Shown: piece after piece, positions 6,337 through 28,146 of the stretch | How the letters are laid out: each line of letters starts with the position of its first letter | How positions within the stretch are numbered: the first letter of the stretch is position 1 | Assembly: GCA_003165075.1 (NCBI GenBank) | Contig: PLSM01000094.1 | Location: 111,509 to 175,508 of the forward strand | Source: Acidobacteriaceae bacterium | Lineage (GTDB): Bacteria; Acidobacteriota; Terriglobia; Terriglobales; Acidobacteriaceae | Length of the DNA stretch: 64,000 nucleotides | Direction: 5' to 3' | Notes under the pieces: generated by a model | The model's input: only the letters and a program-made list of their open reading frames with translations | Databases searched by the model: none | Told to the model about the DNA's origin: nothing | Translations under genes and position numbers: made by a program

Positions 6337-7701
6337 TCAAGGTACAGAAGATGCCGCAGGCGCACCTACCGCAGCTTCTCCCGGGACTTCAGGCCCAGCG
6401 AATGTGACCTGGACGCGTGTATGCCGCACATAGGCCCACAGATAAAAGATGCACATGGCCAGCAACACGAGCGGGACTGGCCGAGCCAGCACTACTGTCA
6501 GTATTTCGCCTGTAAGGCCTTGGGCAGTGGCAAGCAGAGGACGAGAGAGCCAGATGCGCGCTGCGCTTGGCGTATCTCCGTTGGCCACCAAGCCGGCGGC
6601 AGTGACCGCGAGCGCTGACCACCCTACAACGCCGCGCTCGGCCCAGAGCATGGCGCACGCGGGAATTGTAAGCAGCAGAAGCCGAGCATCGTCCTGCCGG
6701 TGATAGAGCGGCAGCATGGCGAGAGGCGCTATGGCCGCCAGCGCCAGCCAGGCCGTGGCCGGCGAGAAACGCGATCGTAGTGTAGCCAACACCCAGACCA
6801 GGAGAAGCGGCACACAAAAAAGATAACTGGCCGGGTTGTAGATGCGCGGATCATCCAGGAATACGCTGATCACCGTCTGCAGGTCGACGATTGAATCGGG
6901 AGTGTCGCGAGAGGCGGAGGTCGGTCCGGGATCGTTGATGTCGCTGCGCGCCGAAGTCGCGGTGAGGTTGGAGTGCAGCTCCGACATCCAGTGCGGCGCA
7001 ACATACGAGACCCACAGAACGCCCGGCAGGCCGAGGACGATGGTTACCACGAGGGTTTGCAGCGCGCGCTTGCGGCAGAGGCCGCCGGCCAACAGGAAAT
7101 AAAGCCAGATCAGACCCGCAACATGCGGCTTGATGGCCAGGCTAACAGCAAAACAGAGAATCCCGGCGGGCACAAACCTCCCCTTGAGAAAGCACCACAC
7201 GGCCACTGCGCAAAGGCCGACCACGACCCCGGCAGTATTGGCAACGTCGGTAAGCATGATGCTGGTGAGAAGAAAGAAGCAGATCAGGACTCCGGCCATT
7301 ATTGGCGCGTGATCGGCGGCTAGGTTCCACATCAGACATGCGCCAAGGACGATGCTCAGAGCAATAAGCGCAATCCAGAGCGCGTGCGCCCAGGCCCACG
7401 GCAGCAATGCAAGGGGTGCGATAAGTATCAGGCCGGTTGGCAGGTTGATATAGACCGCGACAAGGCGGCGCACGGGAGCAGCATCCGACATGCGATCGCC
7501 TCCCTCGGCCCGGTAGACGCGCAGCATCTCACTTTCCCGGTAGGGATCAGCATGTTGCAGCAGGCAGCGCGCTCCGTAATACACCGCCTTGAAGTCGATT
7601 ACGGTGGCCGTTGCGGAGCGCTCCATGGCGATGCTCACTAGGATGAAGATCACGCTGCCAAAGAGCAGAAAAATCAACCCATCGAGCCGCTCTCTCTTCA
7701 T
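6337..7701 (-). CDS. GT87/DUF2029-like multi-TM glycosyltransferase, tandem paralogue 3
   Basis: Same motif set (IDFKAVYYGARCLLQHADPY, SLAIKPHVAGLIWLYFLLAGG); start at 7701 overlaps the preceding stop as ATGA. Confidence 0.78.
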   Translation of the reverse strand: MKRERLDGLIFLLFGSVIFILVSIAMERSATATVIDFKAVYYGARCLLQHADPYRESEMLRVYRAEGGDRMSDAAPVRRLVAVYINLPTGLILIAPLALLPWAWAHALWIALIALSIVLGACLMWNLAADHAPIMAGVLICFFLLTSIMLTDVANTAGVVVGLCAVAVWCFLKGRFVPAGILCFAVSLAIKPHVAGLIWLYFLLAGGLCRKRALQTLVVTIVLGLPGVLWVSYVAPHWMSELHSNLTATSARSDINDPGPTSASRDTPDSIVDLQTVISVFLDDPRIYNPASYLFCVPLLLVWVLATLRSRFSPATAWLALAAIAPLAMLPLYHRQDDARLLLLTIPACAMLWAERGVVGWSALAVTAAGLVANGDTPSAARIWLSRPLLATAQGLTGEILTVVLARPVPLVLLAMCIFYLWAYVRHTRVQVTFAGPEVPGEAAVGAPAASSVP

Positions 7702-9020
7702 TGCGAGCCTCTCTCTGCGGCGCGGGCATAAGTGCGCCGCACGTAGACCCACAGATAGAAAATGCCCATCGTCAACAGAATGGGTGGAATTGGCCTTGTG
7801 ACCGCAACCGTGACTATCTTTCCTGGCAACCCCGCTGCGGAAATGTTGAAATCCTTGGTGAGCAGCCTGAGAGCTATAAGCGGAATATCACCAGTCAGAA
7901 CAACCGCTGCGGTATTCACCAGCAAGGCGAGCCAACGAATCAGGCCGCCTTCTGCCCAGAGCATCGCACATGCAGGAATACTGAGCAGCAGGAGCTTGGT
8001 GTCATAGGGCCGATGATAAACCGGGAGCATGGTCAGAGCCGCGATTGCCGCCAGCGCCAGCCAGGCTGTCGCCGGCGAGGAACGCGATCGCACGGTTACA
8101 AACATCCATACGAGCAGCAGCGGCGCACAAATCAGATAGGAAGCCAGATCGTAGAAGCGCGGATCATCCCGAAAGGGGCTGATGACTGTTTGCAGGTCAA
8201 TGACTGTATACGGCAGGCGGCCATCAAAATTAGCCCCTCTTGGGTCGCTGAGGCTTCCAGGCGCAGAATTCGCCGATAAATTGGCGCGTAGTTCCGGCAC
8301 CCAGTTGGGAGCAACATGTGTGATCCACAGGACAGCGGGAAGACTTAGCACCAGTGTCACAACGAGGGTTTGCAGAGCGCGTTTGCGATAAACTCCGCCT
8401 GCCAATAAAAAGTAGAGCCACACCAGAGCCGCGTCATGGGGCTTGACAGCGAGGGCAACCGCAAGACACAGAACACCTGTCGCGGCAAAGCGCTCCTCAA
8501 GAAAACACCAGGCGGCAATCACGCAAAGGCTCACCACTATCCCGGCCGAATTACCGACCGCGAACACAAATTCGCAGTTGGCAAGCACCATGCAAGCCAG
8601 GAAAATGGAAACTCCCGGCGCGCGTCTTGCTCCCAGATCCCACATCAGAAAGGCCGCGAGGATCAGGCAGCAGGCCATCAGCATCATCCAAAGAACATGC
8701 GCAGGCCCCCACGGCAGAATCGCGAAGAGAGCCACGAACGAAGCTGCAGTGGGCAAGTAGACCCACAGCGTTACACTGCGGCGAAGCTGGGCAAACTCCG
8801 GTGAACTTTCCCCGCCAGCCGCCAGATAGGAACTCTGTAGTTCGCTCTCCTGGTAGGGGTCGCACCGTTGAAGCAGGCAATGCGTACCGTAATAAACCGC
8901 TTTGAAGTCGATCATTCCGTACAGCGCCGTTCGTTCCAAAGAAGCGCCCCAGAGGATGAAAATCCCGCTGCTCAGCAGCAACAGAAGCACTCCACCCAGG
9001 CGCGCTCTTGTCATCTTCAA
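7698..9020 (-). CDS. GT87/DUF2029-like multi-TM glycosyltransferase, tandem paralogue 2
   Basis: MIDFKAVYYGTHCLLQRCDPY, ALAVKPHDAALVWLYFLLAGG, LPVYHRPYDTKLLLLSIPACAMLWAEGG; ATGA overlap with upstream gene. Confidence 0.78.
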   Translation of the reverse strand: MKMTRARLGGVLLLLLSSGIFILWGASLERTALYGMIDFKAVYYGTHCLLQRCDPYQESELQSSYLAAGGESSPEFAQLRRSVTLWVYLPTAASFVALFAILPWGPAHVLWMMLMACCLILAAFLMWDLGARRAPGVSIFLACMVLANCEFVFAVGNSAGIVVSLCVIAAWCFLEERFAATGVLCLAVALAVKPHDAALVWLYFLLAGGVYRKRALQTLVVTLVLSLPAVLWITHVAPNWVPELRANLSANSAPGSLSDPRGANFDGRLPYTVIDLQTVISPFRDDPRFYDLASYLICAPLLLVWMFVTVRSRSSPATAWLALAAIAALTMLPVYHRPYDTKLLLLSIPACAMLWAEGGLIRWLALLVNTAAVVLTGDIPLIALRLLTKDFNISAAGLPGKIVTVAVTRPIPPILLTMGIFYLWVYVRRTYARAAERGSQ

Positions 9021-10447
9021 CCTCTCTCTCCGTCAGGAATGGCGTGCAAGCTCTGAAACCGGTTGCTGAGTCCCCTTTCCTGGCGCGCGCTGGATGCGAG
9101 CGGCTCGGGTTCGTGCGGCTGCTGTTCAGGACTTCGCACATCTGTGAATCCCGCCGGAGTGCGCATGCGCCGCACGTAGACCCACAGATAAAAAATGCCC
9201 ATCGTCAAGAGGATGGGTGGAATTGGCCTTGTGACCGCAACCATCGCTATCTTTCCCAGCAGGCCCGTTGGACCTGGGTGCAGATCCTTGGTGAGCATTC
9301 CGAGAATTGCCAGCGGAATATCTCCTGTCAAAACAACCGCCGCAGTATTTACCAGAACAGCAACCCACCCAACCAGGCCGCCCTCGGCCCAGAGCAAGGC
9401 ACAGGCAGGAACGGTGAGCAGCAAGAGCTTCGCGTCATGATGGCGATGATAAACGGGGAGCAGGGAGAGCGCCGCGACTGCCGCTAGCGCCAACCATGCT
9501 GTTGCAGGCGAGCTGTGGGAGCGCAGAGTTACTAATATCCAAACGAGCAGGAGCGGTCCGCATATCAGATAGGTCACCGGGTTATAGAATTGCGGATTAT
9601 CGCGGAAGGCGCCGACGACGGCTTGCATGTCGATGACCGGATCCGGATCGCGGTTACCGGCTCGATTGAGCTCTGGATCGTTAAGACCGCCGTGTGCCGT
9701 TGTCTCCACCAGATTCGAGTGCAATTCCTGCATCCAACGGGGCGCAACGCTGGACGTCCACACGACCGCCGCGAGACCCAACACAAGAGTCACTGCGAGA
9801 GTTTGCAGTGCGCGCTTGCGGCAAATTCCCCCCGCCAGCAGGAAATAGAACCAGACCAGGCCCGCGACCTGGGGCTTGACGGCGAGGCTGATTGCCAGGC
9901 AGATCACACCCACCGCAGCAAGGCGCTCCTGGAGAAAACACCACGCGCCCACCAGGCAAAGGCTGACCACAATCCCTGCTGTATTTCCAGCCGCAAAGAT
10001 GTATTCGCAGTTAGCCAGCACCATGCAAGCCAGGAATACAGAAACGCCCGGCGCGCGTTTTGCCCCCACGCTCCACATCAAGAAGGCGGCGATGGTCAGG
10101 CCTGCGCCCGTCATGGCCATCCATAGCATATGCGCCGGCCCCCACGGCAGCATCGCCAAAGGAGCGATGAAAATAAATACAGTCGGCAGGTTTACGCATA
10201 TCGTGACAATCCCGGAAAGTTGGCTCAACTCCGGGGTATGATCGTGCTCTTCGGCCAGATAAACCGACTGCAGTTCACTTTGCCGGTAGGGGTCGCGATG
10301 CTGAAGCAGGCATCGCGCGCCGTAGTAGACCGCCTTGAAATCTATCATTCGGTGAGGCATGGAGCGCTCCAACGAAGCGCCCCAGGAAATGAAGATCCCA
10401 CTACTCAGCAGCAACAGAAGCACTCCGCCCAGCCGCGCTCTTGTCAT
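9017..10447 (-). CDS. GT87/DUF2029-like multi-TM glycosyltransferase, tandem paralogue 1 (operon-proximal)
   Basis: MIDFKAVYYGARCLLQHRDPY, SLAVKPQVAGLVWFYFLLAGG; ATG at 10447 preferred over the longer track ORF because MTRARLGG aligns with the N-terminus of paralogue 2. Confidence 0.78.
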   Translation of the reverse strand: MTRARLGGVLLLLLSSGIFISWGASLERSMPHRMIDFKAVYYGARCLLQHRDPYRQSELQSVYLAEEHDHTPELSQLSGIVTICVNLPTVFIFIAPLAMLPWGPAHMLWMAMTGAGLTIAAFLMWSVGAKRAPGVSVFLACMVLANCEYIFAAGNTAGIVVSLCLVGAWCFLQERLAAVGVICLAISLAVKPQVAGLVWFYFLLAGGICRKRALQTLAVTLVLGLAAVVWTSSVAPRWMQELHSNLVETTAHGGLNDPELNRAGNRDPDPVIDMQAVVGAFRDNPQFYNPVTYLICGPLLLVWILVTLRSHSSPATAWLALAAVAALSLLPVYHRHHDAKLLLLTVPACALLWAEGGLVGWVAVLVNTAAVVLTGDIPLAILGMLTKDLHPGPTGLLGKIAMVAVTRPIPPILLTMGIFYLWVYVRRMRTPAGFTDVRSPEQQPHEPEPLASSARQERGLSNRFQSLHAIPDGERG

Positions 10448-10464
10448 GTTCGACCTTTCCTTCT

Positions 10465-11274
10465 TCAGGGACGGTGCGTGAGCTCGGAATAGTACTTCTG
10501 TCTGACCTTTCTTCCTGATGCTTCGAAGCGCGGCAGGCGGACAAGGTGCCACTTGTGCGCCACAAAGCTCAACGTCGTGCCGAGAACTCCAAGTCCATAC
10601 TGCACGCTACGCTTGAAGTTGATGGACGAAGCTTCTCGAAAGTATTTCGTGGGGCAGGAGATTTCTCCGATGCGGAAGCCGAACATAACGGCCTGCGCGA
10701 TCATCTGGTTGTCAAAGACAAAGTCGTCGGAGTTCTCGAGTATCGGTAGAGTCTCAAGCAGCTCGCGCGAGAATGCACGGAAGCCGGTGTGATATTCCGA
10801 TAGCTTGACGCCCAGAAACAGATTTTGAAACGCGGTGAGGAAGCGGTTGGCGATGTACTTATAGAGCGGCATGCCGCCCCGGAGTGCGCCACCGCCCAGA
10901 ATCCGCGAGCCAAGCACCATGTCGTAAACACCACTGGCCACCATGCCAGCCATGGCCGGGACCAGGGAGGGTGTGTACTGATAATCGGGGTGGACCATGA
11001 CCACAATATCGGCGCCCGCAGCCAGAGCCTCTTGATAACAGGTCTGCTGGTTGCGGCCATAGCCGTAGTTGGTATCGTGAACGAAGGTCTGCACGCCGAG
11101 TTCACGGGACAGTTGCGCGGTTTGGTCCCTGCTGGAGTCATCGACAAGAATCTTGATATCCACCACAGCAGACAGCTCGCGCACTGTCACTTCCAAAGTT
11201 TTCTCGGCGTTGTAGGCCGGCATCACGACCGCAATTCGTTTTCCGTCGATCATGGATTCACGACCCTCATCCAT
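10465..11274 (-). CDS. Family 2 glycosyltransferase, dolichyl-phosphate-mannose/undecaprenyl-phosphate-sugar synthase-like
   Basis: RIAVVMPAYNAEKTLEVTVREL, ILVDDSSRDQTAQLSRELG, VMVHPDYQYTPSLVP, YHTGFRAFSRE. Confidence 0.88.
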   Translation of the reverse strand: MDEGRESMIDGKRIAVVMPAYNAEKTLEVTVRELSAVVDIKILVDDSSRDQTAQLSRELGVQTFVHDTNYGYGRNQQTCYQEALAAGADIVVMVHPDYQYTPSLVPAMAGMVASGVYDMVLGSRILGGGALRGGMPLYKYIANRFLTAFQNLFLGVKLSEYHTGFRAFSRELLETLPILENSDDFVFDNQMIAQAVMFGFRIGEISCPTKYFREASSINFKRSVQYGLGVLGTTLSFVAHKWHLVRLPRFEASGRKVRQKYYSELTHRP

Positions 11275-11304
11275 CTATTTTCTTACAAACATACCTCAGG
11301 CGGA

Positions 11305-13065
11305 TTACCGTGTTACCGGGGTTACCTGCTCAGGCACCGGATAAGGGACGGCCTCTGCCGGACTCAGATCCGGCTGCACCAGCCAGACCTTCCGATTCTT
11401 ATAGTACTGGAATAGCTCACGATTACTGGCCCCATCCATCTCGTGCGCCCAGATGACCTTCGAATCATCGATGTCGGCGGCATTGAAAATCCACTCCTGG
11501 GTGAGATACGGGTCCGCAGAGGCGCGGACTAAAACCAGTTGCTGGCCAGGAAGCTGTTCCAACCGGCTCTCAATATTCGCTCGTTCCGTACCGAAATGAT
11601 CAGGTCCATACCAACGGTCCATCCACGCGCTTGGCGGCGCCTCGGAAATTGGGAAATGGAGCGCACGGTCAAATAACCGTAGTCCTGCCATCACCAGGCA
11701 TATGGTTACGCTCAGTCGCACGATTGTCGTGCCCACTCGTTGACCCCCGGGGCTCCAATGCCACAGATGACGCATGGCCTGCAATCCCACGGCATAGAGG
11801 GCCCCCGCAAAAGGCGCCAGATAATGCGGGATCAGGTAGATCTCAATCAACATTCCTGCCACGAGAACGAGCAAACACACAACGAGGAACCGGATGCGCC
11901 GGTCGCGGAGTGTCCAGGGAAGAAAGACGAGCGGGGGAAACAACGCGAATCCGGCGAAAAACAACTCCGCCCTGACTGGTTTGATCAGCGTTTGGAGTAG
12001 GAAGCCCGACGGCTTACGGAATGAATTGAATTCTGCGAGCTCGACGTCGCGATAATAGTGGAGCATGACTTCGTGGTGATAAACCGGCTCCGGCCGCGGC
12101 GACTGCCAGAAGTAATAGGGCGCCATGGCGTAGGTCGCTCGATTGACGGTGTAGGGCAAGGTAAGTGGGTTGCCAAAGGCGCGGTAATCGTAATAACCCA
12201 ACCACGCGGCAACGGCAACGAGCAGCGCCAGCGCGGGCACGGTACGCCGGAAGAGGACCGCGGCGGTAGGCCGGCCTTTCGCGGTCAGCAACCAGTGGAG
12301 CATCGCCACCGCGACGGGGATGCAAAGAAGCACGCATTCATAGGGACGGGTAATGGCAAGGAGACCAATGCCCACGGCCATCAGCAGAGCATATCGCGGG
12401 CGCGCAGTGCGCATGAAGCGCGGCAGCCCACCCAGCACCAGTGCGCCGCCCAATGCAGCGATGGAACCGCCACCGGTGTAGCTATTGGTCCAGTAACTGA
12501 AAATGCCCAGGCGCAGAACTGAGAGGAATCCGCCCAGGAGTGCCCAGCAGGGCGGCAACCACGCCTGCAGCATCCAGCAAAGTGCAGAGCACATGAGGCC
12601 GCTGGCGATGAGAAGCCCGTACCAGGGATGGCCGAAAAGGACTTTCCCCGTGGCAAGCACAAGGCCTTGACCAGGAAAGTACATAGACATGTACGTTGGC
12701 TTCATGTCGACGAAGATGGCTTCGAAGTGAACCCACATGGCGGGCGTTGGATTGGCGAGACGCCCGTGAGCAAACGTGTCCCCCGAGAGCAGGAAGCTGA
12801 AATCGTCTGCGATAACCGGGAGCGGGCGGGGTAACAAAGGAAGAATCACAAGGCGCAGAAGAACCATGGTCAGCCCAACAACGGCCACTGCCAATTCCTG
12901 CTTTCGCGCCAGGCGCCCGAATCCACGCTCAATCTGTGAGAAACCAGCAAAACCGAGTCGCGGCCATGCAAAGGCAACGGCAACCCCGATTGCTGTGAGA
13001 CCACCCTCAACCAGCATCGGTGTAATCGATTCGCCCAAAGAAGGAGAAGTCTGAAGCATGTACAT
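11305..13065 (-). CDS. Multi-TM membrane protein, GT-C/PMT-like
   Basis: Long hydrophobic ORF; acidic first loop VIADDFSFLLSGDTFAHGRLANP; co-directional with the GT2 gene, short gap. Confidence 0.55.
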   Translation of the reverse strand: MYMLQTSPSLGESITPMLVEGGLTAIGVAVAFAWPRLGFAGFSQIERGFGRLARKQELAVAVVGLTMVLLRLVILPLLPRPLPVIADDFSFLLSGDTFAHGRLANPTPAMWVHFEAIFVDMKPTYMSMYFPGQGLVLATGKVLFGHPWYGLLIASGLMCSALCWMLQAWLPPCWALLGGFLSVLRLGIFSYWTNSYTGGGSIAALGGALVLGGLPRFMRTARPRYALLMAVGIGLLAITRPYECVLLCIPVAVAMLHWLLTAKGRPTAAVLFRRTVPALALLVAVAAWLGYYDYRAFGNPLTLPYTVNRATYAMAPYYFWQSPRPEPVYHHEVMLHYYRDVELAEFNSFRKPSGFLLQTLIKPVRAELFFAGFALFPPLVFLPWTLRDRRIRFLVVCLLVLVAGMLIEIYLIPHYLAPFAGALYAVGLQAMRHLWHWSPGGQRVGTTIVRLSVTICLVMAGLRLFDRALHFPISEAPPSAWMDRWYGPDHFGTERANIESRLEQLPGQQLVLVRASADPYLTQEWIFNAADIDDSKVIWAHEMDGASNRELFQYYKNRKVWLVQPDLSPAEAVPYPVPEQVTPVTR

Positions 13066-13598: not shown

Positions 13599-13796
13599 CT
13601 ACGTAATGTAACTGCCGACGGTGGTAGAAACCTGTCGGAACGCCTTGTTGAGGCCAGACGCCATGGACGACATTCCCGCAGTCGCTCCGAAGGCAACCGT
13701 TGCAACAACAAGTGCGTACTCGACCAGATCCTGACCCTCTTTGTCGTTGATCAGGATCTGAAGCCTGAGAACCCAATTGTCTAGGACATCCCTCAT
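13599..13796 (-). CDS. flp: Flp/Fap-type type IVb pilin (copy 2)
   Basis: NDKEGQDLVEYALVVATVAFGATAGMSSMASGLNKAFRQVSTTVGSYIT; AGGAG ribosome-binding site. Confidence 0.9.
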   Translation of the reverse strand: MRDVLDNWVLRLQILINDKEGQDLVEYALVVATVAFGATAGMSSMASGLNKAFRQVSTTVGSYIT

Positions 13797-13870: not shown

Positions 13871-14068
13871 CTACGTAATGTAGGAGCCGAGGGTGGTGGA
13901 AACCTGCCCGAACGCCTTGTTGAGCCCGGTCGCCAGGGACGACATACCAGCTGTCGCGCCGAAAGCGATCAAAGCCACAACGAGGGCGTACTCAACCAAG
14001 TCCTGACCTTCTTCGCGAGACATCAGATCCTGGGCCTTAACGAACATCTTGAGCATCAGATCATTCAT
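13871..14068 (-). CDS. flp: Flp/Fap-type type IVb pilin (copy 1)
   Basis: SREEGQDLVEYALVVALIAFGATAGMSSLATGLNKAFGQVSTTLGSYIT. Confidence 0.92.
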   Translation of the reverse strand: MNDLMLKMFVKAQDLMSREEGQDLVEYALVVALIAFGATAGMSSLATGLNKAFGQVSTTLGSYIT

Positions 14069-14419: not shown

Positions 14420-14881
14420 CTAGTCGGGAGATATACAATCGTGCCCCGCAACCGGCGGAGCGGCAGGAAAGAATTCCAGGAAGTCTCCAGCCTCGGTGCA
14501 CGTCTCTCGGATCACTCCGGCGGCAAGCTCAATCACAGAATGCGCGGACAGGCAGGCAGACATGCGCCAAGGCGGCACGTTGCTCCTCACCTTTCTGATG
14601 CGGTGTCTTCGGTCAAGGAAGACAAGGTCGATCGGGAACTGCATTCCGATGGTATGCACGGCCTCACAGGGGAGTATCCACAAACCTTCACCAGGACCGA
14701 GGCCTTTGCGCCCCAGCAGGCCTTTGGTGCGCTTTGCGCCATGATCGGCAACTTCCATGCTGCTGGCCAGCTGGGTATGGCGCGTAGTGTTCAGAACCTG
14801 AAGGCGAATCTCCGCGCCGGGTTGCGTGCGCCCTGCGCCCCCTCCGTGCAGCGCCATGGAAAACCAGGCAGGCAGCTTCAT
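14420..14881 (-). CDS. DUF192 family protein
   Basis: KGLLGRKGLGPGEGLWILPCEAVHTIGMQFPIDLVFLDRRHRIRKVRSNVPPWRM; consistent with DUF192. Confidence 0.8.
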   Translation of the reverse strand: MKLPAWFSMALHGGGAGRTQPGAEIRLQVLNTTRHTQLASSMEVADHGAKRTKGLLGRKGLGPGEGLWILPCEAVHTIGMQFPIDLVFLDRRHRIRKVRSNVPPWRMSACLSAHSVIELAAGVIRETCTEAGDFLEFFPAAPPVAGHDCISPD

Positions 14882-15092: not shown

Positions 15093-16676
15093 TTACTGAG
15101 ATCCGGGTCCGGCGCTGGTGCCAACCGCCGTATTCGCGGTAGCGGCGCCGCCACCGTAACTACCGCCGCCACCCGACGCACTCATCGATCCGTCGATGTT
15201 CAGCGGCTGCTCCGGCTTCATGCTATCCAGCAGTTTCTCGACAGGAATGGTTGGAGGCGGAGGCGCCGGACTGTTCTCAGCCGTCTTTGCGTCAGGATTG
15301 TGCATCGGAATTCCGGAGTTGGGCGGAAGGAAGGCTTGAGGATACTTAAGCTCCGGCAACGCCGCGCCGGCCGGAATAGGAGCCACGATCTCCGGCGTCA
15401 CAAGCACAATCAGTTCGGTATTGGTCTTGGTCCTTTGAATCGACTGGAAAAACTTGCCCAGAATGGGAATGTCGCCCAGAAAGGGTATCTTCTGGAAAGA
15501 CTCATTTTCACGGTTATCGAGCAGGCCGCCAATGGCGAAACTCTGACCGTCCTGCAGTTCGACCTCCGTCTTCACTCGGCGAATGTCAATTGCAGGCACG
15601 TCAAATCCACCGATTTGGATGGCCTGGGTAAAATCCAGTGAACTGACTTCCGGGGCTACCTGAAGACGAATGGTTCCGCGCGGAGTGATGGTGGGAATGA
15701 AGTTTAGCCGGACCCCATACTCCTTGAACATGAGGGTAATGGTGGCCCCGCCGGTCGTTCCGGCTGCCTGGGCAACTGGATATGGATATTCGCCGCCGGC
15801 AAGGAAGCTGGCCTGTTTCCCGTTCAAGGCCATTACGTTGGGCTCGGCAAGCACCTCAACCAGGCCCTGGGTCTGGAGGGCTTCGATTGTCGCACCGAGA
15901 TCCAACCCGGGGTAAAAGGCGAAGAGGTTCAGCGCATTGGAAAGTGACACCGCGGACGCAGTCGAACCAGTGGGAATGGTAGGCGAAGGCGGACTGAATT
16001 GACCCGTCGAGACACTGCCGATGGTGTTTCCAAGCCCAGTGCTGAAGACGTTAATCCCCAGCTGCTTTTCTTTGGTGCGGTCCACACTGGCAAATCGCAC
16101 CTTGAGCAGAATCTGCGGGTCCGAGGCAGGCACGCTGACGTTGAGCAGGTTGACGACCTTGCCTATCGAAGCGGCGATCGTTTGCGCCCGGTCGGAACTG
16201 TTCAGATCCTTCACTGTGCCGCGAAGAAAGATGCTGCCATTCTCTTCGCTGACCCTGAGATTTTGACCCGGAAGTTCGTTCCTGAGTTCGCGGCGGACGG
16301 CCTCAAGGCGGTCATTGGTGACGTAGGAGCTGGGCCGAACAGTTACGTTGAAAAACTGCCGGCTGCCGCTCGTGTCCCAGAGAATCAGCGTGGTCTCTCC
16401 GGGAGTCTTGCCGTTGACCAGAATCTGATTAGGGCTGATTGCGACGGCCTCCGCAAAGTCGCCCAGACCCACAACAATCCGCGTCACGGGCCGCGCAAGG
16501 TCCAGCACCACTGACTTACCCACGGCAACGGACAGATCGTTTGTGGAGTCCTGGCTGGGAGCTGCTACCGGCGAAGTAGCGGGCGGAGCAGTCTGCGCCC
16601 AAAGGCCTGCCCCGGGGCTGAAGAGGAAAGTCAATGCACTGACAAAAGCAATGGCGACCCCAGTTCTTGCTCTCAC
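15093..16676 (-). CDS. rcpA: Flp pilus secretin RcpA/CpaC
   Basis: Signal peptide, BON-like segment, LAEPNVMALNGKQASFLAGGEYPYPV, VTEVELQDGQSFAIGGLLDNRE, PFLGDIPILGKFFQS. Confidence 0.92.
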   Translation of the reverse strand: MRARTGVAIAFVSALTFLFSPGAGLWAQTAPPATSPVAAPSQDSTNDLSVAVGKSVVLDLARPVTRIVVGLGDFAEAVAISPNQILVNGKTPGETTLILWDTSGSRQFFNVTVRPSSYVTNDRLEAVRRELRNELPGQNLRVSEENGSIFLRGTVKDLNSSDRAQTIAASIGKVVNLLNVSVPASDPQILLKVRFASVDRTKEKQLGINVFSTGLGNTIGSVSTGQFSPPSPTIPTGSTASAVSLSNALNLFAFYPGLDLGATIEALQTQGLVEVLAEPNVMALNGKQASFLAGGEYPYPVAQAAGTTGGATITLMFKEYGVRLNFIPTITPRGTIRLQVAPEVSSLDFTQAIQIGGFDVPAIDIRRVKTEVELQDGQSFAIGGLLDNRENESFQKIPFLGDIPILGKFFQSIQRTKTNTELIVLVTPEIVAPIPAGAALPELKYPQAFLPPNSGIPMHNPDAKTAENSPAPPPPTIPVEKLLDSMKPEQPLNIDGSMSASGGGGSYGGGAATANTAVGTSAGPGSQ

Positions 16677-17527
16677 TGTTTTCCCTCGGGAGTTGCGAAT
16701 TTTTCTTCCGTCCTTTGCGCACCGTTGATGACCACGACCGAAAACATCTGAGGAGCTGGCTTGACCGGCTTGTTCACATGCCCGGACAAGTGGGCCTTGA
16801 CTGGCGTCTTGGCCACGTCCTGAAAGATATTGGTCATGGCGCTACCCTCAACCGGGTCAATCTTGGTATCGAGGGGATTCCGGAGCACCAGCTGGATATG
16901 CGTCTGATTGCTGGCCAAGGCCAATACTTGCGCCTGTTCCGGAGTCACCAGCAGATTGACCACCTGTACCTGCTGAGGCTTGCCTTCGGCATCTTTCTGG
17001 ATGTCCGTGCCGGCGGACAGCACTTCGATGTTCTGCAGGATGGTTCTCACCTGCGTATCCCCCTGCACAGCCTGGGTGCCCGGAGGGGTGCCGGAGACGA
17101 TCACATCGACGCGCATGCCGGGAAGAACGAAACCGGCCACGCCCACCACCTCATCCACCTTGATTGCGCAGGCTCTCATACCCTGCTGAATGGTGGCAGC
17201 GAGTCCGCCACCGGAGCCCATTGGCGCCAAGCGGTTATCCAAAATAGGCTCACCGGCATAAATATTCGCGATGACGCCACGCCCGACGGCGCTCTTCGCA
17301 TCGAGAATCGCGCCCTTCGGAGCTGTACCCTGAACCTGAAGCGTGGTCAGGTCATTGGCGCTCAGCACGGTCCCAATTTTGATGTCTTGAGCTGCCGCAA
17401 CCACGCTGGTGGCAGGCACCGGCTTCGACGCCGCGATGCGCAAGCCGACCAGGCGATAGACGACAAAGGCGCACAGCGCTGCCACAATGAATGCGCTGAG
17501 GAGAATGGTTGCCAGTCTTCGGTTCAT
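16673..17527 (-). CDS. rcpC: Flp pilus assembly protein RcpC/CpaB
   Basis: N-terminal TM, SAF-like segment (VVAAAQDIKIGTVLSANDLT), VVGVAGFVLPGMRVDVIVSGTP. Confidence 0.9.
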   Translation of the reverse strand: MNRRLATILLSAFIVAALCAFVVYRLVGLRIAASKPVPATSVVAAAQDIKIGTVLSANDLTTLQVQGTAPKGAILDAKSAVGRGVIANIYAGEPILDNRLAPMGSGGGLAATIQQGMRACAIKVDEVVGVAGFVLPGMRVDVIVSGTPPGTQAVQGDTQVRTILQNIEVLSAGTDIQKDAEGKPQQVQVVNLLVTPEQAQVLALASNQTHIQLVLRNPLDTKIDPVEGSAMTNIFQDVAKTPVKAHLSGHVNKPVKPAPQMFSVVVINGAQRTEEKFATPEGKQ

Positions 17528-18184: not shown

Positions 18185-19675
18185 ATGGCGTCTTCCCACA
18201 CCATCACGCTTTTCTCGGATCAATCGCAGGTGGGCCAGAGACCAACCTCATTTTTGTTATCGGTTCTGGTTCATGGCGCCGTGGTTGGCTTGATCGCGCT
18301 CGGATTCATTCTCACGCCTGATATAAGGCCCCGCAGGGGCGTCCATTATGTAGTGCGGCAGGTAGATCTCGACCAGGCCGAAGCGGAAATCCGTCGGGCC
18401 GGAGGCCAGGGCAGCATGTATCCGGCCCCGCTCCCCGACTCCCACGCAGAGGATGCACGTGGCGGACTCCAGGCTCCGGCATCAAGCCAGCGACAAATGG
18501 CGAACCGCAAACCCGCCCCGCAAACCATCGTGCAGCCGGACATCCCCCCTAATACGATCCTGCCCAAAGCCCTTCCCTTGCCTGCCATGCTTCTCTGGAA
18601 GGTCTCCAAACCGAATGTGAAGAAGCTGACTCCGCCGCCGCCCCAGCCGGCAAAGGCTCAGTTGCCTCCCAAGCCTGACATCCCGAATCAGGAGACAATC
18701 CTGGCCGATGTCCAGATCACGTCTACGCCTTTCCGCAGGGAGACTCTCAAACAGCTGCCCAGTACCACCACACCGGTTCCGGCTCACCAGAACGCACCCG
18801 TCCAGCTCATTCCACAAACAACCTCCGTCTCGTCCCTTGATACGGCTTCGGCGGCAGTGATGTCGGTCTCTGATATCAGCCTGGCGCGGGGCAGCGTTTC
18901 GCTGCCGCCAGCCAACCAGAGCGCGACGGGCAACCCGAACGGGGGGATGGCGCCAGGCCGGTCAGGCGATGCATCCAAGCCGGGCAATGGCGACCCGGCC
19001 AACAGCGGCAACGCAACGGGCAAGGGGGCGGGCCGGATCGATACCGGGGGACAGGGTGCGGGCGCAGGAAAAGGCGGTGCGCAAAAAGGCGCAGGGAATG
19101 GCGCAGGCAACGGTACTATTGCAGGCTCACGGCCTGGCCAGGGTTCGGGGTCCGGCTCCGCATCGGGATCGGGTTCAGGCAACGGCGATGGTGACAGTGG
19201 TTATTCAACCGCGAGGATCACCCTGCCCAAAGGCGGAAATTTCTCAGCAGTCATGGTAGGCAATACCATGGAGGACCAGTATCCTGAGACGTCTTCTGTC
19301 TGGGGCGGCAGAGCAGCCTACACGGCCTATTTGCATGTGGGACTGGCGAAGAGCTGGATTGTGCAATACGCGCTTCCTCGCTCGGCGGATATGGTCGCGG
19401 AGGACAGCGTGTCCCACCTGGACGCCCCCTGGCCCTTCTACATTGTGCGTCCCAATCTTGACCCCTATGAAGTGAATGCTGATGCGCTGCTGGTTCGCGG
19501 CATTGTGAACGAGGCGGGCCGATTTGAAGAACTGGCAGTAGTATTCCCTGCCGCGTTTGAGCGGGCGCAGTTTGTCTTGGACGCGCTGAAACAGTGGCAA
19601 TTCAGGCCTGCGAAGCAGAATGGTCAAAACACAAAGGTGGAAGTCCTGGTAATTATTCCCGAGTTAACGAATTAA
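18185..19675 (+). CDS. TonB-like periplasmic protein with Gly/Ser/Ala-rich linker and TonB-C-like domain
   Basis: N-terminal TM LLSVLVHGAVVGLIALGFI, Pro-rich stretch, repetitive GAGKGGAQKGAGNGAGN linker, C-terminal ALLVRGIVNEAGRFEELAVV...ALKQWQFRPAKQNGQNTKVEVLVIIPE. Confidence 0.75.
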   Translation: MASSHTITLFSDQSQVGQRPTSFLLSVLVHGAVVGLIALGFILTPDIRPRRGVHYVVRQVDLDQAEAEIRRAGGQGSMYPAPLPDSHAEDARGGLQAPASSQRQMANRKPAPQTIVQPDIPPNTILPKALPLPAMLLWKVSKPNVKKLTPPPPQPAKAQLPPKPDIPNQETILADVQITSTPFRRETLKQLPSTTTPVPAHQNAPVQLIPQTTSVSSLDTASAAVMSVSDISLARGSVSLPPANQSATGNPNGGMAPGRSGDASKPGNGDPANSGNATGKGAGRIDTGGQGAGAGKGGAQKGAGNGAGNGTIAGSRPGQGSGSGSASGSGSGNGDGDSGYSTARITLPKGGNFSAVMVGNTMEDQYPETSSVWGGRAAYTAYLHVGLAKSWIVQYALPRSADMVAEDSVSHLDAPWPFYIVRPNLDPYEVNADALLVRGIVNEAGRFEELAVVFPAAFERAQFVLDALKQWQFRPAKQNGQNTKVEVLVIIPELTN

Positions 19676-19695: not shown

Positions 19696-20667
19696 CTACT
19701 TGACCTGCTTCAGCGCCTTCAGGAACTTATCTAGCTTCTTCTTGTTTGCCCCACCATCCATCAGGTTCTGCTCCAGCGTCCGAGTCCCGGCCTTCGACAC
19801 GATAAACGAAAGCGCCATTCCATCTGAACTCCAACGAATGACCTTTGACTGCACGGTGATGGAATCGTCGGGGTCCTCTCCCTCGGTGTTCGTCCTTTGC
19901 AGAGTCATCAGGATCATGGTGCCCGGGAACCAGCGCTCGTCCGTCAACAGGTGGAGACCGCTATGACTGACGTCGCCGATGTGGTAGGCCTGTGGTCCGC
20001 CTCCCGTCCAGTAATAAGCCACTAGCCCCGGCAACGGCTCGCGGTTTGCCTTACGGCGATCACTCACCAGCCAGCGTAGAAATCGAATGAAAACCGAATC
20101 GGGGCTCGGCTCCTCGTCCTCTTCAGACTCATCCTTCTCTTTCAACTCCTGAAGAACCATTTCCAAAGTCCTGGCGCGGTGCCGGGCCGACTCCGTATCT
20201 GTGCTGCCACCGCTGGCGGACGGTTGCTCAACGGACTCCCTGACTAGGACACTCTCCGAAGCGGTGGGCGAAGGGGATGCGCTTTCGAGACGATGCTCCA
20301 TCTCTTCGGCCACACAAATTACCAGCAGGTCTCCGGGCTGAGTCTGCGACGAATAGATCGTGTGTGCGGGCAGAACAAGAGCACTGGCGGCGGGAGTCCT
20401 GAGGGGTTCAAGATCGGAGGTGGGAAACGACTCCACTTCCAGAACAACGCGATATTGGTCGTCCAGGCAGACCACGTCCACGGGAGCGAATCCTCGCGTC
20501 GCAGGAATTCCTATAAAAGGTGTAATCCAAAGTCCGGTATCGGGCTTGACGGCCAGCCGCTCAATGAGCGCGTTGACCGGCGCCTCAGAGGTATCGGCGA
20601 TAGTCACCCCCAGGCTGAGGAAGCTCTCGCGGGTTTGGTTGTATACACAGTACTTCTGGGTTTCCAT
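19696..20667 (-). CDS. DUF192-like N-terminal region fused to C-terminal PilZ domain
   Basis: PilZ motifs RKANR (RxxxR) and DVSHSG (DxSxxG); N-terminus DTGLWITPFIGIPATRGFAPVDVVCLDDQYRVVLEVESFP...ALVLPAHTIYSSQTQPGDLLVI matches the DUF192 pattern. Confidence 0.72.
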   Translation of the reverse strand: METQKYCVYNQTRESFLSLGVTIADTSEAPVNALIERLAVKPDTGLWITPFIGIPATRGFAPVDVVCLDDQYRVVLEVESFPTSDLEPLRTPAASALVLPAHTIYSSQTQPGDLLVICVAEEMEHRLESASPSPTASESVLVRESVEQPSASGGSTDTESARHRARTLEMVLQELKEKDESEEDEEPSPDSVFIRFLRWLVSDRRKANREPLPGLVAYYWTGGGPQAYHIGDVSHSGLHLLTDERWFPGTMILMTLQRTNTEGEDPDDSITVQSKVIRWSSDGMALSFIVSKAGTRTLEQNLMDGGANKKKLDKFLKALKQVK

Positions 20668-21111: not shown

Positions 21112-22020
21112 TTACTTGAAAAACTTGCCGAACGATTGCGCCATGGTGATTACCGCGGGACCAAGCACGACTACAAAGAGCGATGGGAAGATAAAGAGCA
21201 CGAGCGGGAAGATCAGCTTGACCGACAGCTTGGCCGCCTTCTCTTCGATCTCCTGGACGCGCTTGGTTCTGAGCGTTTCGGAATGAACGCGTAACGTCTT
21301 GCCGATGCTTGTGCCAAACTGTTCGGCCTGCACCAGCATCGATACGAGGTTGCGAATCACGTCAACGTCGGTGCGTTCTGCCAGGTGCTTCCAGGCTTCT
21401 GCGCGCGGGCGTCCTGCACGCTGCTCAAGTGCCACGATTCCAAATTCGTCGCTGAGAGCCGGTTGAGCAGTGTGCAGTTCTTCCGCGGTGCGCGCCGTAG
21501 CCTGGTCAAGACTCAGGCCTGCCTCGATGCAGATGATCAGCATATCGAGGACGTCGGGCAGGCCACGCTTCAAGCTCGCCTGCCGTTTGGATATCTGCCT
21601 GCCTAGCCAGAAATCGGGCGCCAGAAATCCGACCCCCAGAGCAGCGGTATAAACAAACAGCGGACTGGTGTGCCCGAGCCCGGTCACCAGGGCAAGGATG
21701 CAAAGCACCACCGGCACAACTACCTTGGCACCATAGAAGAGCTTGGCGGCTCCATCCTTGCGATAGCCGGCACGGACCAGCCGTTGCTGCAGCACCCCGA
21801 TTTCGGCTTGGCTCCTGGGCAGCACACGCTCGAAGTGCTCTACCACGCCCCCGATTACGTTGCGCGTTTCCTCCAGGGTGGTGGAGAGGCTTCTCTTTTT
21901 GGTGCGTGGATAGAGCGCGGCGGTAATCCGCTCCTGAATCGTATCGCGATAGAAGATCAGCAATCCGCCACTGGCGATAAGCAGGAAGGCAACCACAAAA
22001 GAAACAACCGCAAAGATCAT
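21112..22020 (-). CDS. tadC: Tad pilus inner-membrane platform protein TadC (T2SSF family)
   Basis: LKRGLPDVLDMLIICIEAGLSLDQATARTAEEL, FGTSIGKTLRVHSETLRTKRVQEIEEKAAKLSVKLIFPLVLFIFPSLFVVVLGPA. Confidence 0.93.
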   Translation of the reverse strand: MIFAVVSFVVAFLLIASGGLLIFYRDTIQERITAALYPRTKKRSLSTTLEETRNVIGGVVEHFERVLPRSQAEIGVLQQRLVRAGYRKDGAAKLFYGAKVVVPVVLCILALVTGLGHTSPLFVYTAALGVGFLAPDFWLGRQISKRQASLKRGLPDVLDMLIICIEAGLSLDQATARTAEELHTAQPALSDEFGIVALEQRAGRPRAEAWKHLAERTDVDVIRNLVSMLVQAEQFGTSIGKTLRVHSETLRTKRVQEIEEKAAKLSVKLIFPLVLFIFPSLFVVVLGPAVITMAQSFGKFFK

Positions 22021-22029
22021 ATCTCTCCC

Positions 22030-23007
22030 TCACACATCCATCTTGACGATCTTGCGAATAATGAATCCACCAATGACGATTAAGGTTCCCGCGATCCACA
22101 AGAGCTTGACGCCGATTTCAGTTTTCCAGAGGAGGCTCATCATGGTGGGATTGACGGTATAGAGCAAGCCGGCCAGCACGACGGGAAGCAAAGTCAGAAT
22201 CCACCCCGTGAGCCGCCCCTGCGCAGTATGGGTATTGATCTGCCGCTTCAGGCGGAATCTCTCCCGGATCACAGTCGAAGACTTTTCCAGCACTTCTGCC
22301 AGGTTGCCTCCGCTCTCTCTCTGGATCAGGATGGCCGTGGCCACAATCTTCAGATCCTGCAATGGAACTCGGGTCACCAGGTTGTCCATGGCGGATTTCA
22401 GATCGAGGCCGTAATTCATCTCGTCGAAGGTAACTCGAAATTCTGCGCCGACCGGGTCAGGGCACTCGCGGGACACCAGGCCCATTGCTGCGTTCAGGCT
22501 ATGGCCCACACGCAGCGCGCTCACGACCAGATCGAGGGCTTCAGGCAAACCCTGTTCAAATTGACCCATTCGGCGGGACCGCTTTTGCACCACCACGAGA
22601 AATGGCAGCGTGGACAATGCCAGTCCCACAACCAGGGCGAACAACAGGGCATGGGTGCGGAGCCAGATCAGGTAGGCGGGGACGATGAAAGCTCCGCCGC
22701 ACATCAGCATCAGGCCTCCCACTGTCCACTTGAGATCTGCCTGATAGAGCAGACGGCGCATGCGCGGCGCTAGTTCCAGCTTCGTCAGCCAGCGATCCAG
22801 CCAGGGAATGGTGCTCATCAGTTCGCTCTTGCGAACGTCGACGATCAACTCGCTCATTTCCGCCTTGGCGCCGGTCGATGCCAAAGCAGTGTCAAGCCTG
22901 GCCAGGGCCATCTTGGCGTTGCGCTCTGCGCTGGAACCGCTGGCAATTGCCACCACGGCTATCACGCCGAAGACGCCCAAGAATACGAGAATGACGATCA
23001 GAGCCAT
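22030..23007 (-). CDS. tadB: Tad pilus inner-membrane platform protein TadB (T2SSF family)
   Basis: QFEQGLPEALDLVVSALRVGHSLNAAMGLVSRE, RESGGNLAEVLEKSSTVIRERFRLKRQINTHTAQGRLTGWIL; start MALIVILVF at 23007. Confidence 0.93.
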   Translation of the reverse strand: MALIVILVFLGVFGVIAVVAIASGSSAERNAKMALARLDTALASTGAKAEMSELIVDVRKSELMSTIPWLDRWLTKLELAPRMRRLLYQADLKWTVGGLMLMCGGAFIVPAYLIWLRTHALLFALVVGLALSTLPFLVVVQKRSRRMGQFEQGLPEALDLVVSALRVGHSLNAAMGLVSRECPDPVGAEFRVTFDEMNYGLDLKSAMDNLVTRVPLQDLKIVATAILIQRESGGNLAEVLEKSSTVIRERFRLKRQINTHTAQGRLTGWILTLLPVVLAGLLYTVNPTMMSLLWKTEIGVKLLWIAGTLIVIGGFIIRKIVKMDV

Positions 23008-23030
23008 ATCGATCCGACCCCCCTTTCCGG

Positions 23031-24302
23031 TCAGCTGACTTCCGTGGAACGCTCGAACAGCGTCGACGGAAGGAAGATGCCTGAGGTTTTGAGCTGTTCG
23101 AGGAACCGGGGACGGATGCGGCTGGGCTGGAAGACGCCCTGCACCTTGCCGTTGGGCCCAATTCCCTTCTTGTTGAACGTGAATATTTCCTGCATGCTGA
23201 TGACGTTCTCTTCCATGCCCGTGATCTCGTGAATGCTGACCACTTTGCGGGAGCCGTCGCTCATGCGCGTGCACTGCACAACGATGGTGAGAGCCGAGGC
23301 AATCTGCTGCCGCACAGTCTTTTCGGGCATATTCAGATTACTCATGGCTACCATGGACTCGAGCCTGGTCAGCGCATCGCGCGCGGTATTGGCGTGCACT
23401 GTGGTCATCGAGCCCTCGTGGCCGGTGTTCATCGCCTGCAGCATGTCGAAGGCTTCCTCGCCGCGGACCTCACCGATGATGATGCGGTCGGGGCGCATAC
23501 GGAGGCTGTTAATAAGCAGTTGACGCTGGCGGATGGCTCCCTGCCCCTCCACGTTGGGCGGGCGCGTCTCAAGGCGCACAATGTTTTCCTGCGCCAACTG
23601 CAGTTCCGCCGCGTCCTCGATGGTGATGACGCGCTCATTCTGCGGGATGTATTGCGACAGAATATTGAGGAAGGTGGTTTTTCCGGCGCCGGTACCGCCG
23701 GAGATGAGGATGCTGAGGCGCGCGCGCACAGCAGAGGAGAGCAGTTCCATCATCTCTGCGGAAATGCTCTTCAATTGCACCAGTTGGTTGGCGGCCAGGG
23801 GGCCGGTGCCGAAGCGGCGGATCGACAAGCTCGGGCCGTCGAGCGCCAAAGGGGGGATGATCGCGTTGACGCGGGAGCCGTCGGGCAGGCGTGCGTCGAC
23901 CATGGGCGACGACTCATCCACTCTGCGGCCCACGCGCGATACGATGCGGTCGATGATCTGCAGCAGGTGGCGGTCGTCGCGAAACGCTGCATCGGCCCTC
24001 TGTAGCAGGCCGCCTTTTTCAATGAAGACGTGGTCCTTGTCATTGACCAGAATGTCGGAGATCTTCTGGTCCTTGAGCAGTGGCTCCAGCGGGCCCAGGC
24101 CAAAGACTTCGTCCAGCAGGTCTGTCTCGATCTTTTCCTGTTCGTCAAAGCTCAGCGGCACCCTGCGGTCGCTGATGATTTCGTTGATGATGCTCGAAAC
24201 TGCCTGGCGCGCCTGGCTGGAATTAATTCGCGACAGCTTTTCCAGATCCAGCTTGGAAAGCAGAGTCCGGTGCACTTCGGCCTTGAAATTCTCCAGATTC
24301 AT
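23031..24302 (-). CDS. tadA: Tad pilus assembly ATPase TadA/CpaF
   Basis: [76 protein letters not shown]. Confidence 0.95.
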
Positions 24303-24361: not shown

Positions 24362-25561
24362 TTAGCCTCCAAAAAGGCTGAATCCCTTCCGCTTTTCCGG
24401 CTTGGGAGGCATTCCTGCCGCCTCTCGCGCCATTTGCTGGATGACCCTTCCAATGCTCGAGTCATCCGTAGCCAGCGACGTAGCCTCGTTCTGCAGCCGC
24501 CGGATGGTGAAGTAATCACTGGGAATCTTCCACTGAATGGGCCGTGTAAGAGCTTTCTCTATATGCTCTTCATCGACACCCATGGACTGTTTGACGTAGC
24601 GGTTCAGAACAATTTCGAGTTTGGGACCGCCGGATTTGAAAAACTCCGAAATCAGGCGGTGCGAGTTTCTCAATTCAGGAATTCCGGCTTGCATGACCAG
24701 GTAGAAGGTATCCACCTGCTCTAACCAGGTGGCATCGGTCAAATCGCATCTTGAACCCGCGTCAACCACCACAAAACCAAATTCCTGCTGCGCGACGGCC
24801 AGCAGTTTTCCGATGGCGTCGTTGCTGGCTGGAATTTGAGGAAACCTTCCCGGAGCGGCCAACACCTGCAGACCCGATGGGTGCTTGGTGAGCAGCTTGG
24901 TAAAGAAATTCGCATCCAGCCGGTCCGCGTTCTGGATGGCATCGGCAGTGGAGAACTGGTTGGTCAGGCCGAGGCTGAGGGCCGCGTCTCCAAGGGGAAG
25001 ATCGAGGTCGATCAATGCCGTAGTCTGACTGCACTCCTGCACCAGGGCCACGGCAAAATTGCAAGCCACCGTGGTCACCCCGGAGCCGCCCTTGCCACCC
25101 AGGAAGACAAGAAGTTTGCCACCGGTCTTCTTTGCTGTGCGCGGCGTCCTGCGGCGAGCACCGGCCCGGCTCAGCGCATCGCTAAGAGCGCCGGCGTCGA
25201 TGGGGTCGGCCAGAAACTCGCGCGCTCCCGCCCGCATCGAACGAACCATCATGTTGGGGTCGATCCGCGTGGAGTAGACCATCACCGTCGCCGTATTCAT
25301 GCCGGCCATGGCCTCTACCAGTTGCAAGGCGTACTCGGGATCGCTTTCCAGGTCGATGATGATCGCGTCAAACTGCTGTTCCATGAACCTCGGAACGTCT
25401 TTGATCGTCGGAGGGTAGGAGGAATACTCCCGAACTACCGCCGCATGAGACACGGCCAGAGCGCTGGCCACAGTCCTCCGGCGCCCGTCTTGCGGGCCAA
25501 TTAGTGCAACAGACAATACACTGCTGCTTAAGGGATCCGAATCTTGATTCTGAGTATCCAT
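24362..25561 (-). CDS. cpaE: Tad pilus localisation ATPase TadZ/CpaE
   Basis: Atypical receiver-like N-terminus, deviant Walker A FLGGKGGSGVTTVACNFAVAL, LIDLDLPLGDAALSLGL. Confidence 0.9.
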   Translation of the reverse strand: MDTQNQDSDPLSSSVLSVALIGPQDGRRRTVASALAVSHAAVVREYSSYPPTIKDVPRFMEQQFDAIIIDLESDPEYALQLVEAMAGMNTATVMVYSTRIDPNMMVRSMRAGAREFLADPIDAGALSDALSRAGARRRTPRTAKKTGGKLLVFLGGKGGSGVTTVACNFAVALVQECSQTTALIDLDLPLGDAALSLGLTNQFSTADAIQNADRLDANFFTKLLTKHPSGLQVLAAPGRFPQIPASNDAIGKLLAVAQQEFGFVVVDAGSRCDLTDATWLEQVDTFYLVMQAGIPELRNSHRLISEFFKSGGPKLEIVLNRYVKQSMGVDEEHIEKALTRPIQWKIPSDYFTIRRLQNEATSLATDDSSIGRVIQQMAREAAGMPPKPEKRKGFSLFGG

Positions 25562-25658
25562 TAGAAAGTCAACGCTCCCACTTTCCTGAAACAGCACTGC
25601 CTGTTGAATTCAATTTGTTGCGTTGTCTGCATACTCTACATGGCCCAGAGGTAGTTTC

Positions 25659-26297
25659 TCAATGGGAAAAGAAAGAAAGAACAGTACCAATGGCCATGGC
25701 TGGAGCATACGGTATCTTGCGTGCCTTCGGATTGGAAAGCACTAGCTCTTCCGGAGGACGCATGCCGCGCTTCTTCCAGCCAAAGACAAGATCGCCCGTT
25801 CCGCTGAACAATTCACCCAGAAATCCTCCGCACACCGCCCACCCAATAGCCATGATCCCCCCCACCATACCGGTTACAACCAGCGCAAACACCAGTTGGG
25901 ATGGGCCGATCCAGGCTCCGATTGCGGCGCATAGTTTCACGTCGCCCATACCCATCCCGCCCATCCAGAACAGAATGCCGTAAAGCAGCGCTCCCAACCC
26001 CAGACCCTCCAGGCTGTGCCAGATCCCGATACCGCGCGGCAGGAAAGACACACCAATCCCCACCACCAGGTAGGGAAACACCAGCCAGTTGGGAATGCGG
26101 CGGCTGCGCAGATCCGTAAACGTGGCCACAGCGAGAACCACCACTGTGGGCCACCAGGCGATCAAGTGCAAATCCGGCCTCCCCGATTTAATTTCAGGCG
26201 ATATTGGTGTTGAAGCAATTGTCCCTCCAAATTGCAGTCTGTCAAGAGTACATGAATTCAATGTGTTACCAAGCAGTTCATTTACCGCTGTGTACAC
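25659..26297 (-). CDS. tadV: Prepilin peptidase TadV/CpaA (A24 family); start uncertain
   Basis: TFTDLRSRRIPNWLVFPYLVVGI, WMGGMGMGDVKLCAAIGAWIG (GxGD-type aspartyl protease). Confidence 0.88.
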   Translation of the reverse strand: MYTAVNELLGNTLNSCTLDRLQFGGTIASTPISPEIKSGRPDLHLIAWWPTVVVLAVATFTDLRSRRIPNWLVFPYLVVGIGVSFLPRGIGIWHSLEGLGLGALLYGILFWMGGMGMGDVKLCAAIGAWIGPSQLVFALVVTGMVGGIMAIGWAVCGGFLGELFSGTGDLVFGWKKRGMRPPEELVLSNPKARKIPYAPAMAIGTVLSFFSH

Positions 26298-26748: not shown

Positions 26749-28146
26749 TTGATGATTCAAATAGGACTACTTTCAGACGACCGCGCGCTGCAACCGCTTC
26801 TTTCTTCGGCATTGGGGAGAGAATTTCGCGTTCTGCAGGAAGCCAATGAAGACGGCATCGACGAGCGCCTCGCTGCGGCGGAATGCGATGTCTTGATTCT
26901 TGATCTGCACGCTGAGAACGGGTCGCTGAAAGAGCGGATCGCTTGTTCCCGGCGACTGATCGCCTCGCAGGTTCCCCTGGTAGTCATGGCCGACGACGGC
27001 TATCGTTCGGTCGCTTTGGAATTGGTGCGAGTGGGAGCCTTTGGCTACTGCCGCCGTCCACCCTCTATTCGCGAGTTGAAAACGATGTTGTGCCGGGCGC
27101 ACGAGAATTCTGCGCTCAAGCGCGAGATCCAGACCGTGCAACAGCGCCTGGAGTCAGTCAGCAGCTGCGATCGCCTGATCGGTTCCAGTGTGCGCATGCA
27201 GCGGGTCTATCAGCTGGTGAAGCGCGTGGCTAATATCAACGCGTCGGTGCTTGTGTCCGGCGAAAGCGGCACCGGCAAGGAACTCATCGCCCGCGCCATT
27301 CACAATCTCGGTTCCCGTGCGGACAAGCCGTTTGTGGCCGTATCTTGTAGCGCCATCCCTGAGACCTTGATCGAGGCGGAACTTTTCGGCCACGAAAAGG
27401 GAGCGTTTACCGGTACTGTTGGGGCGCGGGAAGGCTACTTCGAGCAGGCACAGGACGGCACCCTCTTCCTCGATGAAATCGGTGACCTGAGCCCCTTTAC
27501 CCAGGTCAAGCTTCTGCGCGTTTTGCAGGAAATGGAATTCAACCGCCTGGGGAGCACCCGCATCATCCCGCTGCGGGCTCGGCTGATCTTCGCCACCCAT
27601 CAGGACCTGCAGAAACTGGCTACTGAAGGCAAATTCCGCCGCGATCTCTACTACCGCATCAATGTGATGCGAATCGATGCCCCGGCGCTTGCGGACCGCC
27701 CGGAAGACATCGAGCAGATCGCTGCTCACTATCTGGACCATTATTCCGAGATGTTTCAAAAGCCGATGGACCGGATTGAACCGGAAGCAATGTCCCTGCT
27801 CAACACCTATTCGTGGCCCGGCAACGTGCGCGAGCTCGAAAATGTGATTCAGAGGGCGATCATCCTTGCTCCCGGACGGCGCATCCGTATGGATGATCTG
27901 CCACTGGTGATGCATACGGATAAGGTAGTCGATATCAGCGACTACAACCCTGCCGGATCGTTCGAGCGTCAGCTTCGCGACTACAAAATCAAGCTGGCCA
28001 CCGACGCGGTGAAGGAAAACAACGGAAACAAGACCCTGGCGGCGCGCAGCCTGGGCATTTCCCGCGCTTACCTCCATCGCCTGATTCGGCTTTCAGAGCC
28101 GGATCCGATGTTCGAAACGGAATCCGTGGGTTCCGCTTCGGCATAA
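26749..28146 (+). CDS. Sigma-54-dependent activator: receiver-like, AAA+, Fis-type HTH
   Basis: [105 protein letters not shown]. Confidence 0.95.

Follow-up and report, generated by a model that had tools for sequence, protein, structure and literature searches.

The Tad locus of the window

The window, i.e. the whole stretch of 64,000 nucleotides analysed here, carries a Tad locus on its reverse strand. All the components by which such a locus was recognised are present. Pfam matches identify a TadV-type prepilin peptidase (Peptidase_A24, 25659..26297), a TadZ/CpaE-like protein (24362..25597), the motor ATPase TadA/CpaF (23031..24302), the platform proteins TadB (22030..23274) and TadC (21112..22020), CpaB/RcpC (16673..17527) and the secretin RcpA/CpaC (15093..16676), and two Flp-like pilins can be read in the sequence at 13871..14068 and 13599..13796. 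Right after the secretin gene comes a stand-alone DUF192 gene (14420..14881, 153 aa, Pfam 5.7e-19), whose product has the hallmark motifs intact and lacks a hydrophobic N-terminus. The gene under study (19696..20667, ATG at 20667, 323 aa) is on the same strand, with tadC immediately upstream; between it and CpaB lies, on the forward strand, the gene of a TonB_C-like Pro/Gly-rich protein (18185..19675, Pfam). An earlier note had described it as a fusion of a DUF192-like domain to PilZ, placed in a Tad locus that also has a separate DUF192 gene. The open reading frame, the separate gene and the Tad locus are all genuine, with one refinement: TadE-type pseudopilins are absent from the window's Tad locus, their homologues being found in other clusters of the genome.

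Eight TadE-like matches were located in these orphan clusters, on contigs C174, C15, C2, C58 and C54 of the same genome. The 25 Pfam matches listed include no c-di-GMP-binding MshEN domain for TadA, and Rfam reported neither a c-di-GMP riboswitch nor any other RNA in the window, the gap between tadC and the DUF192 gene included. A sigma-54 activator gene (26749-28146, forward strand, Sigma54_activat 7.5e-68) is divergent from the TadV gene and could encode a regulator of this locus. After the pilin genes, four GT87-like and one GT2 glycosyltransferase genes (4901-11274, reverse strand) may serve pilin or surface glycosylation.

The fusion protein is cytosolic. Its residues 1-127 (20287..20667, reverse strand as for all its parts) form a divergent DUF192 domain, detected by BLASTP, hhalign, Foldseek and Pfam on the N-domains. 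Residues 128-202 (20062..20286) are a linker, of low confidence and partly helical in the AlphaFold2 model, and residues 203-290 (19798..20061) form the PilZ domain (Pfam and Foldseek). The chain finishes with C-terminal helices (19699..19776), conserved according to alignment and model, in a segment ending GANKKKLDKFLKALKQVK; a similar segment in relatives stands immediately before TadE.

The PilZ domain of the window's protein scores barely above the Pfam cut-off (22.6 bits for a cut-off of 22.5, PF07238), and those of its relatives mostly reach 24-41 bits. As the note had claimed, it keeps both c-di-GMP motifs: RxxxR is RKANR (20041..20055, R205 to R209) and DxSxxG is DVSHSG (19957..19974, with S234 and G237). 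Both are read in the DNA and in the alignment, where R205, R209, S234 and G237 do not vary among the 44 members compared. Across the 60 fused members described below, RxxxR and DxSxxG are kept in 56 and degenerate in 4, so that c-di-GMP binding is not universal in fused proteins. In Foldseek, the PilZ half of the fold model matches the c-di-GMP-bound PilZ structures 4rt0 and 4xrn, as well as 5kgo and 5y6f. Binding of c-di-GMP by the PilZ half is a prediction that is well supported at the motif level.

Identity and history of the DUF192 domain

DUF192 is a widespread family. Run on the whole 323-aa protein, Pfam does not find it; the N-terminus alone scores 13.9 bits against PF02643 (E 0.061), for a cut-off of 27. 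Neither the profile of the divergent N-domain nor that of the fused proteins gave a meaningful match in a direct search of PDB sequences, and NCBIfam has no specific name for either the fusion protein or the stand-alone DUF192 protein.

The N-domain is 29% identical over 108 aa to the stand-alone DUF192 protein of the window (BLASTP, 7e-11, a value for one pairwise comparison), and a search of its own genome recovers the stand-alone locus at 1e-5. PF02643 is matched by 17 of 21 N-domains of the family (best 8.8e-14), and hhalign places the N-domain profile on the stand-alone DUF192 set at 99.6% (E 1.7e-24, 115 columns). The best solved Foldseek matches of the AlphaFold2 model (pLDDT 77) are the DUF192 structures 3pjy and 3m7a, both of which the stand-alone DUF192 profile also matches by sequence. 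Split relatives, from three other genera of the family, encode the halves in neighbouring genes, DUF192 first and PilZ second, and there the DUF192 gene passes Pfam at 1e-11 to 1e-13 (51.4, 50.1 and 45.0 bits). This split-gene evidence rules out a chance resemblance. The proposal that the first ~120 residues are DUF192-like, and that they should find a structural match in this family, is confirmed, and we regard the identity of the N-terminus as a divergent DUF192 paralogue as settled.

In a tree rooted on canonical DUF192 proteins as outgroup, the stand-alone genes adjacent to RcpA form one group. A second group has at its base the genes that follow TadC in other families, and contains the cluster of all split and fused forms (100 SH-aLRT). 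Within the split clade, a single branch sets all fused forms apart (80, and 95 for 33 of 35 of them); the alignment is that of the short N-domain, and deeper branches are weakly resolved. No PilZ gene was present behind DUF192 in other families among the neighbours listed. Fusion seems to have happened once, within Acidobacteriaceae, and the simplest order is that of a solo DUF192 gene after tadC, then the arrival of a PilZ gene behind it in Acidobacteriaceae, and finally one fusion.

The fate of the DUF192 motifs follows this division. The GL(L/M)xR motif is kept in 20 of 20 split, 43 of 44 stand-alone, 14 of 19 other Tad-linked and 28 of 30 canonical proteins, against none of the 60 fused ones. 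The W/H..M motif is present in 16 of 20 split proteins versus 3 of 60 fused. By a simple hydropathy test, a hydrophobic N-terminus is found in 0-5% of Tad-linked DUF192 proteins and in 73% of the 30 canonical ones. Since both motifs were lost while those of PilZ were kept, the fused DUF192 domain would no longer do its ancestral job, and this paralogue is probably devoid of the family's original activity. It could be objected that N10, W47, D64, D69 and S95 vary little or not at all among fused members, as expected of a domain that is still active or ligand-binding, and regulated by c-di-GMP via PilZ. The loss of GL(L/M)xR in 60 of 60 and of W/H..M in 57 of 60 fused proteins, when nearly all others have kept them, makes this highly improbable. 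We infer instead that the fused DUF192 domain serves as an interaction module, with a PilZ sensor half under strong constraint. The single ‘DUF192 role’ of the earlier note thus probably stands for two distinct roles, one for each copy of the locus, because only the fused domain is without hallmark motifs.

Linkage to Tad genes and other contexts of the module

Scanning one genome per species with the N-domain yielded 80 loci, which belong to Acidobacteria/Acidobacteriaceae, or to a genus thereof, wherever the group is named (Occallatibacter, Edaphobacter, Granulicella, Terriglobus, Terracidiphilus and Acidicapsa). The survey for DUF192-PilZ fusions suggested in the note thus gave 60 fused loci, versus 20 in which DUF192 and PilZ are separate. 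Of these 80 loci, 76 also carry Tad genes, and in each of the 76 loci holding both, the DUF192-PilZ or DUF192 gene adjoins tadC, downstream and on the same strand (median gap 446 bp for fused and 334 bp for split forms). The TonB_C-like gene points the other way in 51 of 52 loci. Stand-alone DUF192 is present in 43 of the 46 loci with RcpA, two of the three exceptions reaching the locus end.

This association extends beyond close relatives. Lower-scoring Tad-type DUF192 genes across the phylum have Tad genes around them in 16 of the 17 loci examined, usually with DUF192 directly after TadC. Among 199 genomes, 131 hold together the Tad marker RcpC and a DUF192 of the Tad-linked class, 5 hold Tad alone, 9 this DUF192 class alone, and 54 neither. 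The class is therefore found in 131 of 136 genomes with RcpC versus 9 of 63 without (Fisher p 4e-33, a value that overstates the case as kinship is ignored). The association of DUF192 with Tad loci elsewhere, on which the earlier note depended, is thereby borne out: a cytosolic DUF192 gene is a standard part of Tad loci across the phylum Acidobacteriota.

We also considered, and rejected, that DUF192 might belong to Tad systems in general. TadA-like matches covering 80% or more of the query were found on 351 plasmids, the weaker ones possibly including conjugation ATPases, and only one plasmid has a match to stand-alone DUF192, with a coverage of 46%. The link between DUF192 and Tad is therefore not universal.

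Nor is the DUF192-PilZ module exclusive to Tad. Genomes contain up to 7 N-domain matches, and the source genome has five further DUF192-PilZ paralogues, one with a long insert, around which no recognised Tad gene was found in the stretches examined. One of them (L041:8202-12532, contig C20) has a response-regulator GGDEF (diguanylate cyclase) gene immediately upstream and MotA/MotB beside it, which suggests that the module also has a variant for flagella or signalling. The proximity of the diguanylate cyclase supports c-di-GMP signalling. Three paralogues of ~680-890 aa (L042:9020-11203, L058:7292-9949 and L074:9160-11208) have several hundred residues without a Pfam match between DUF192 and PilZ.

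The multiple N-domain matches per genome, the several non-Tad copies and the one between the GGDEF and motA/motB genes are what would be expected of a general c-di-GMP adaptor, acting as a flagellar brake or as a scaffold for signalling; its Tad-linked copy would merely be co-transcribed with pilus genes. We find this explanation quite improbable: the Tad-linked copy is the near-universal one, a DUF192 of this class being present in nearly all genomes with RcpC and in few without, and the linkage to Tad is older than the paralogues, because the solo DUF192 gene already follows tadC in other families.

Another partner of PilZ was found in relatives. In several split-gene genomes, PilZ continues into TadE (L065:9724-10575, L066:10299-11276, L092:10418-11317, L108:5479-6813, L109:10433-11347, L121:10435-11310 and L127:10404-11432), and in L095 it runs into a TadG-like protein (10579-12336). 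In the PilZ-TadE proteins, PilZ precedes a typical pseudopilin processing site, G|QALIEY. We know of no described case of a PilZ domain in front of TadE, upstream of the prepilin cleavage site. That the same PilZ is joined to DUF192 or to TadE, depending on the lineage, argues for a physical action at the Tad machine.

Since TadE is matured by TadV in known systems (PMC12307814), the PilZ part of such proteins would be an outsize, removable leader. PilZ could then act on the supply of pseudopilins (TadE/F/G) rather than on the motor, and control minor-pilin entry or tip assembly. Its history would have begun as a TadE leader removable by TadV, after which TadE left the clade of the window and PilZ joined DUF192. 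This scenario accounts for the PilZ-TadE fusions of at least seven loci with their typical site, and for the C-terminal helix that the fused protein retains and that precedes TadE in relatives. It also fits genome G002 (L060), where a DUF192-PilZ paralogue stands right before a TadG-TadE-TadE cluster. Against it, the window's locus has no TadE, and yet the gene is beside tadC in every locus holding both; moreover, a downstream membrane segment is found in 0 of the 60 fused open reading frames. We therefore hold an action on pseudopilin supply to be unlikely, and return to one on the platform or motor.

A putative c-di-GMP input to the Tad pilus

From synteny and gene fusions, we infer a part for the fusion protein in pilus control. 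We lean towards reading its gene as that of a cytosolic c-di-GMP effector or adaptor specific to the Tad (type IVc) pilus of Acidobacteria, and acting on the platform or motor of this pilus. c-di-GMP is the attach-or-swim signal molecule. In the proposed mechanism, the PilZ domain would bind it through RxxxR and DxSxxG, and the DUF192 domain would dock on the inner-membrane platform TadB/TadC or on the motor TadA. Binding would re-order the RxxxR hinge and alter the docking contact; the extension, retraction or assembly of pili would thereby track the cellular c-di-GMP level. The stand-alone DUF192 beside RcpA would retain, with its intact motifs, the original activity of the family.

Precedents exist for parts of this scheme. 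In other type IV pili, e.g. type IVa, PilZ-type proteins are partners of the motor ATPases (PMC11656802). The resemblance to the PilZ/FimX-PilB system described there is that of a PilZ-domain protein at a pilus motor, a position deduced here from genes. In that system, however, PilZ contacts PilB and FimX binds c-di-GMP, whereas here PilZ itself keeps the binding motifs, and the setting is a Tad system whose TadA has no recognised c-di-GMP domain among the matches listed. The N-terminal c-di-GMP-binding domains of MshEN/GspE ATPases, according to literature cited in PMC11656802, likewise give c-di-GMP a direct input to a pilus or secretion motor; here the putative binding domain is a PilZ on a separate protein and not the ATPase N-terminus. 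Alg44, YcgR and MrkH share the principle of a PilZ with RxxxR and DxSxxG whose output comes from a partner domain, but in the fusion protein this partner is DUF192 and the genetic setting is Tad. As for the DUF192 family itself (PF02643, COG1430; 3pjy, 3m7a), the N-domain can be aligned with it along its length and shares the predicted fold, and its unfused orthologues pass Pfam. Unlike canonical members, which usually have a hydrophobic N-terminal segment with GLMxR and WMxNT-like motifs, the fusion protein is cytosolic and both motifs are lost.

PilZ adaptors are thus already known, and what seems new is the partnership with DUF192, the setting in a Tad locus and the fusion to TadE. A literature search, mostly of open-access papers, returned no paper tying DUF192 to Tad or pili, none combining it with PilZ and Tad, and none assigning DUF192 a function; this is suggestive only.

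A more specific version of the scheme can be put forward, possible but doubtful at present. In Acidobacteriota, DUF192 would be a hitherto unrecognised part of Tad machines, cytosolic and ancestral, and the copy fused to PilZ a c-di-GMP switch setting the direction or activity of a bifunctional motor. A single Tad ATPase drives both extension and retraction, and the switch between them is left open in a recent paper on the motor (PMC11300603). How one motor does both is the question to which c-di-GMP may bring part of the answer. Position and gene fusions now place one subclass of DUF192 at a defined machine, and the lost motifs of the fused domain offer a natural contrast for working out the function of intact DUF192 proteins. 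For the Tad pilus, the fusion protein is a candidate specific c-di-GMP input and, if this is true, the adhesion pilus of these soil bacteria would have a built-in sensor.
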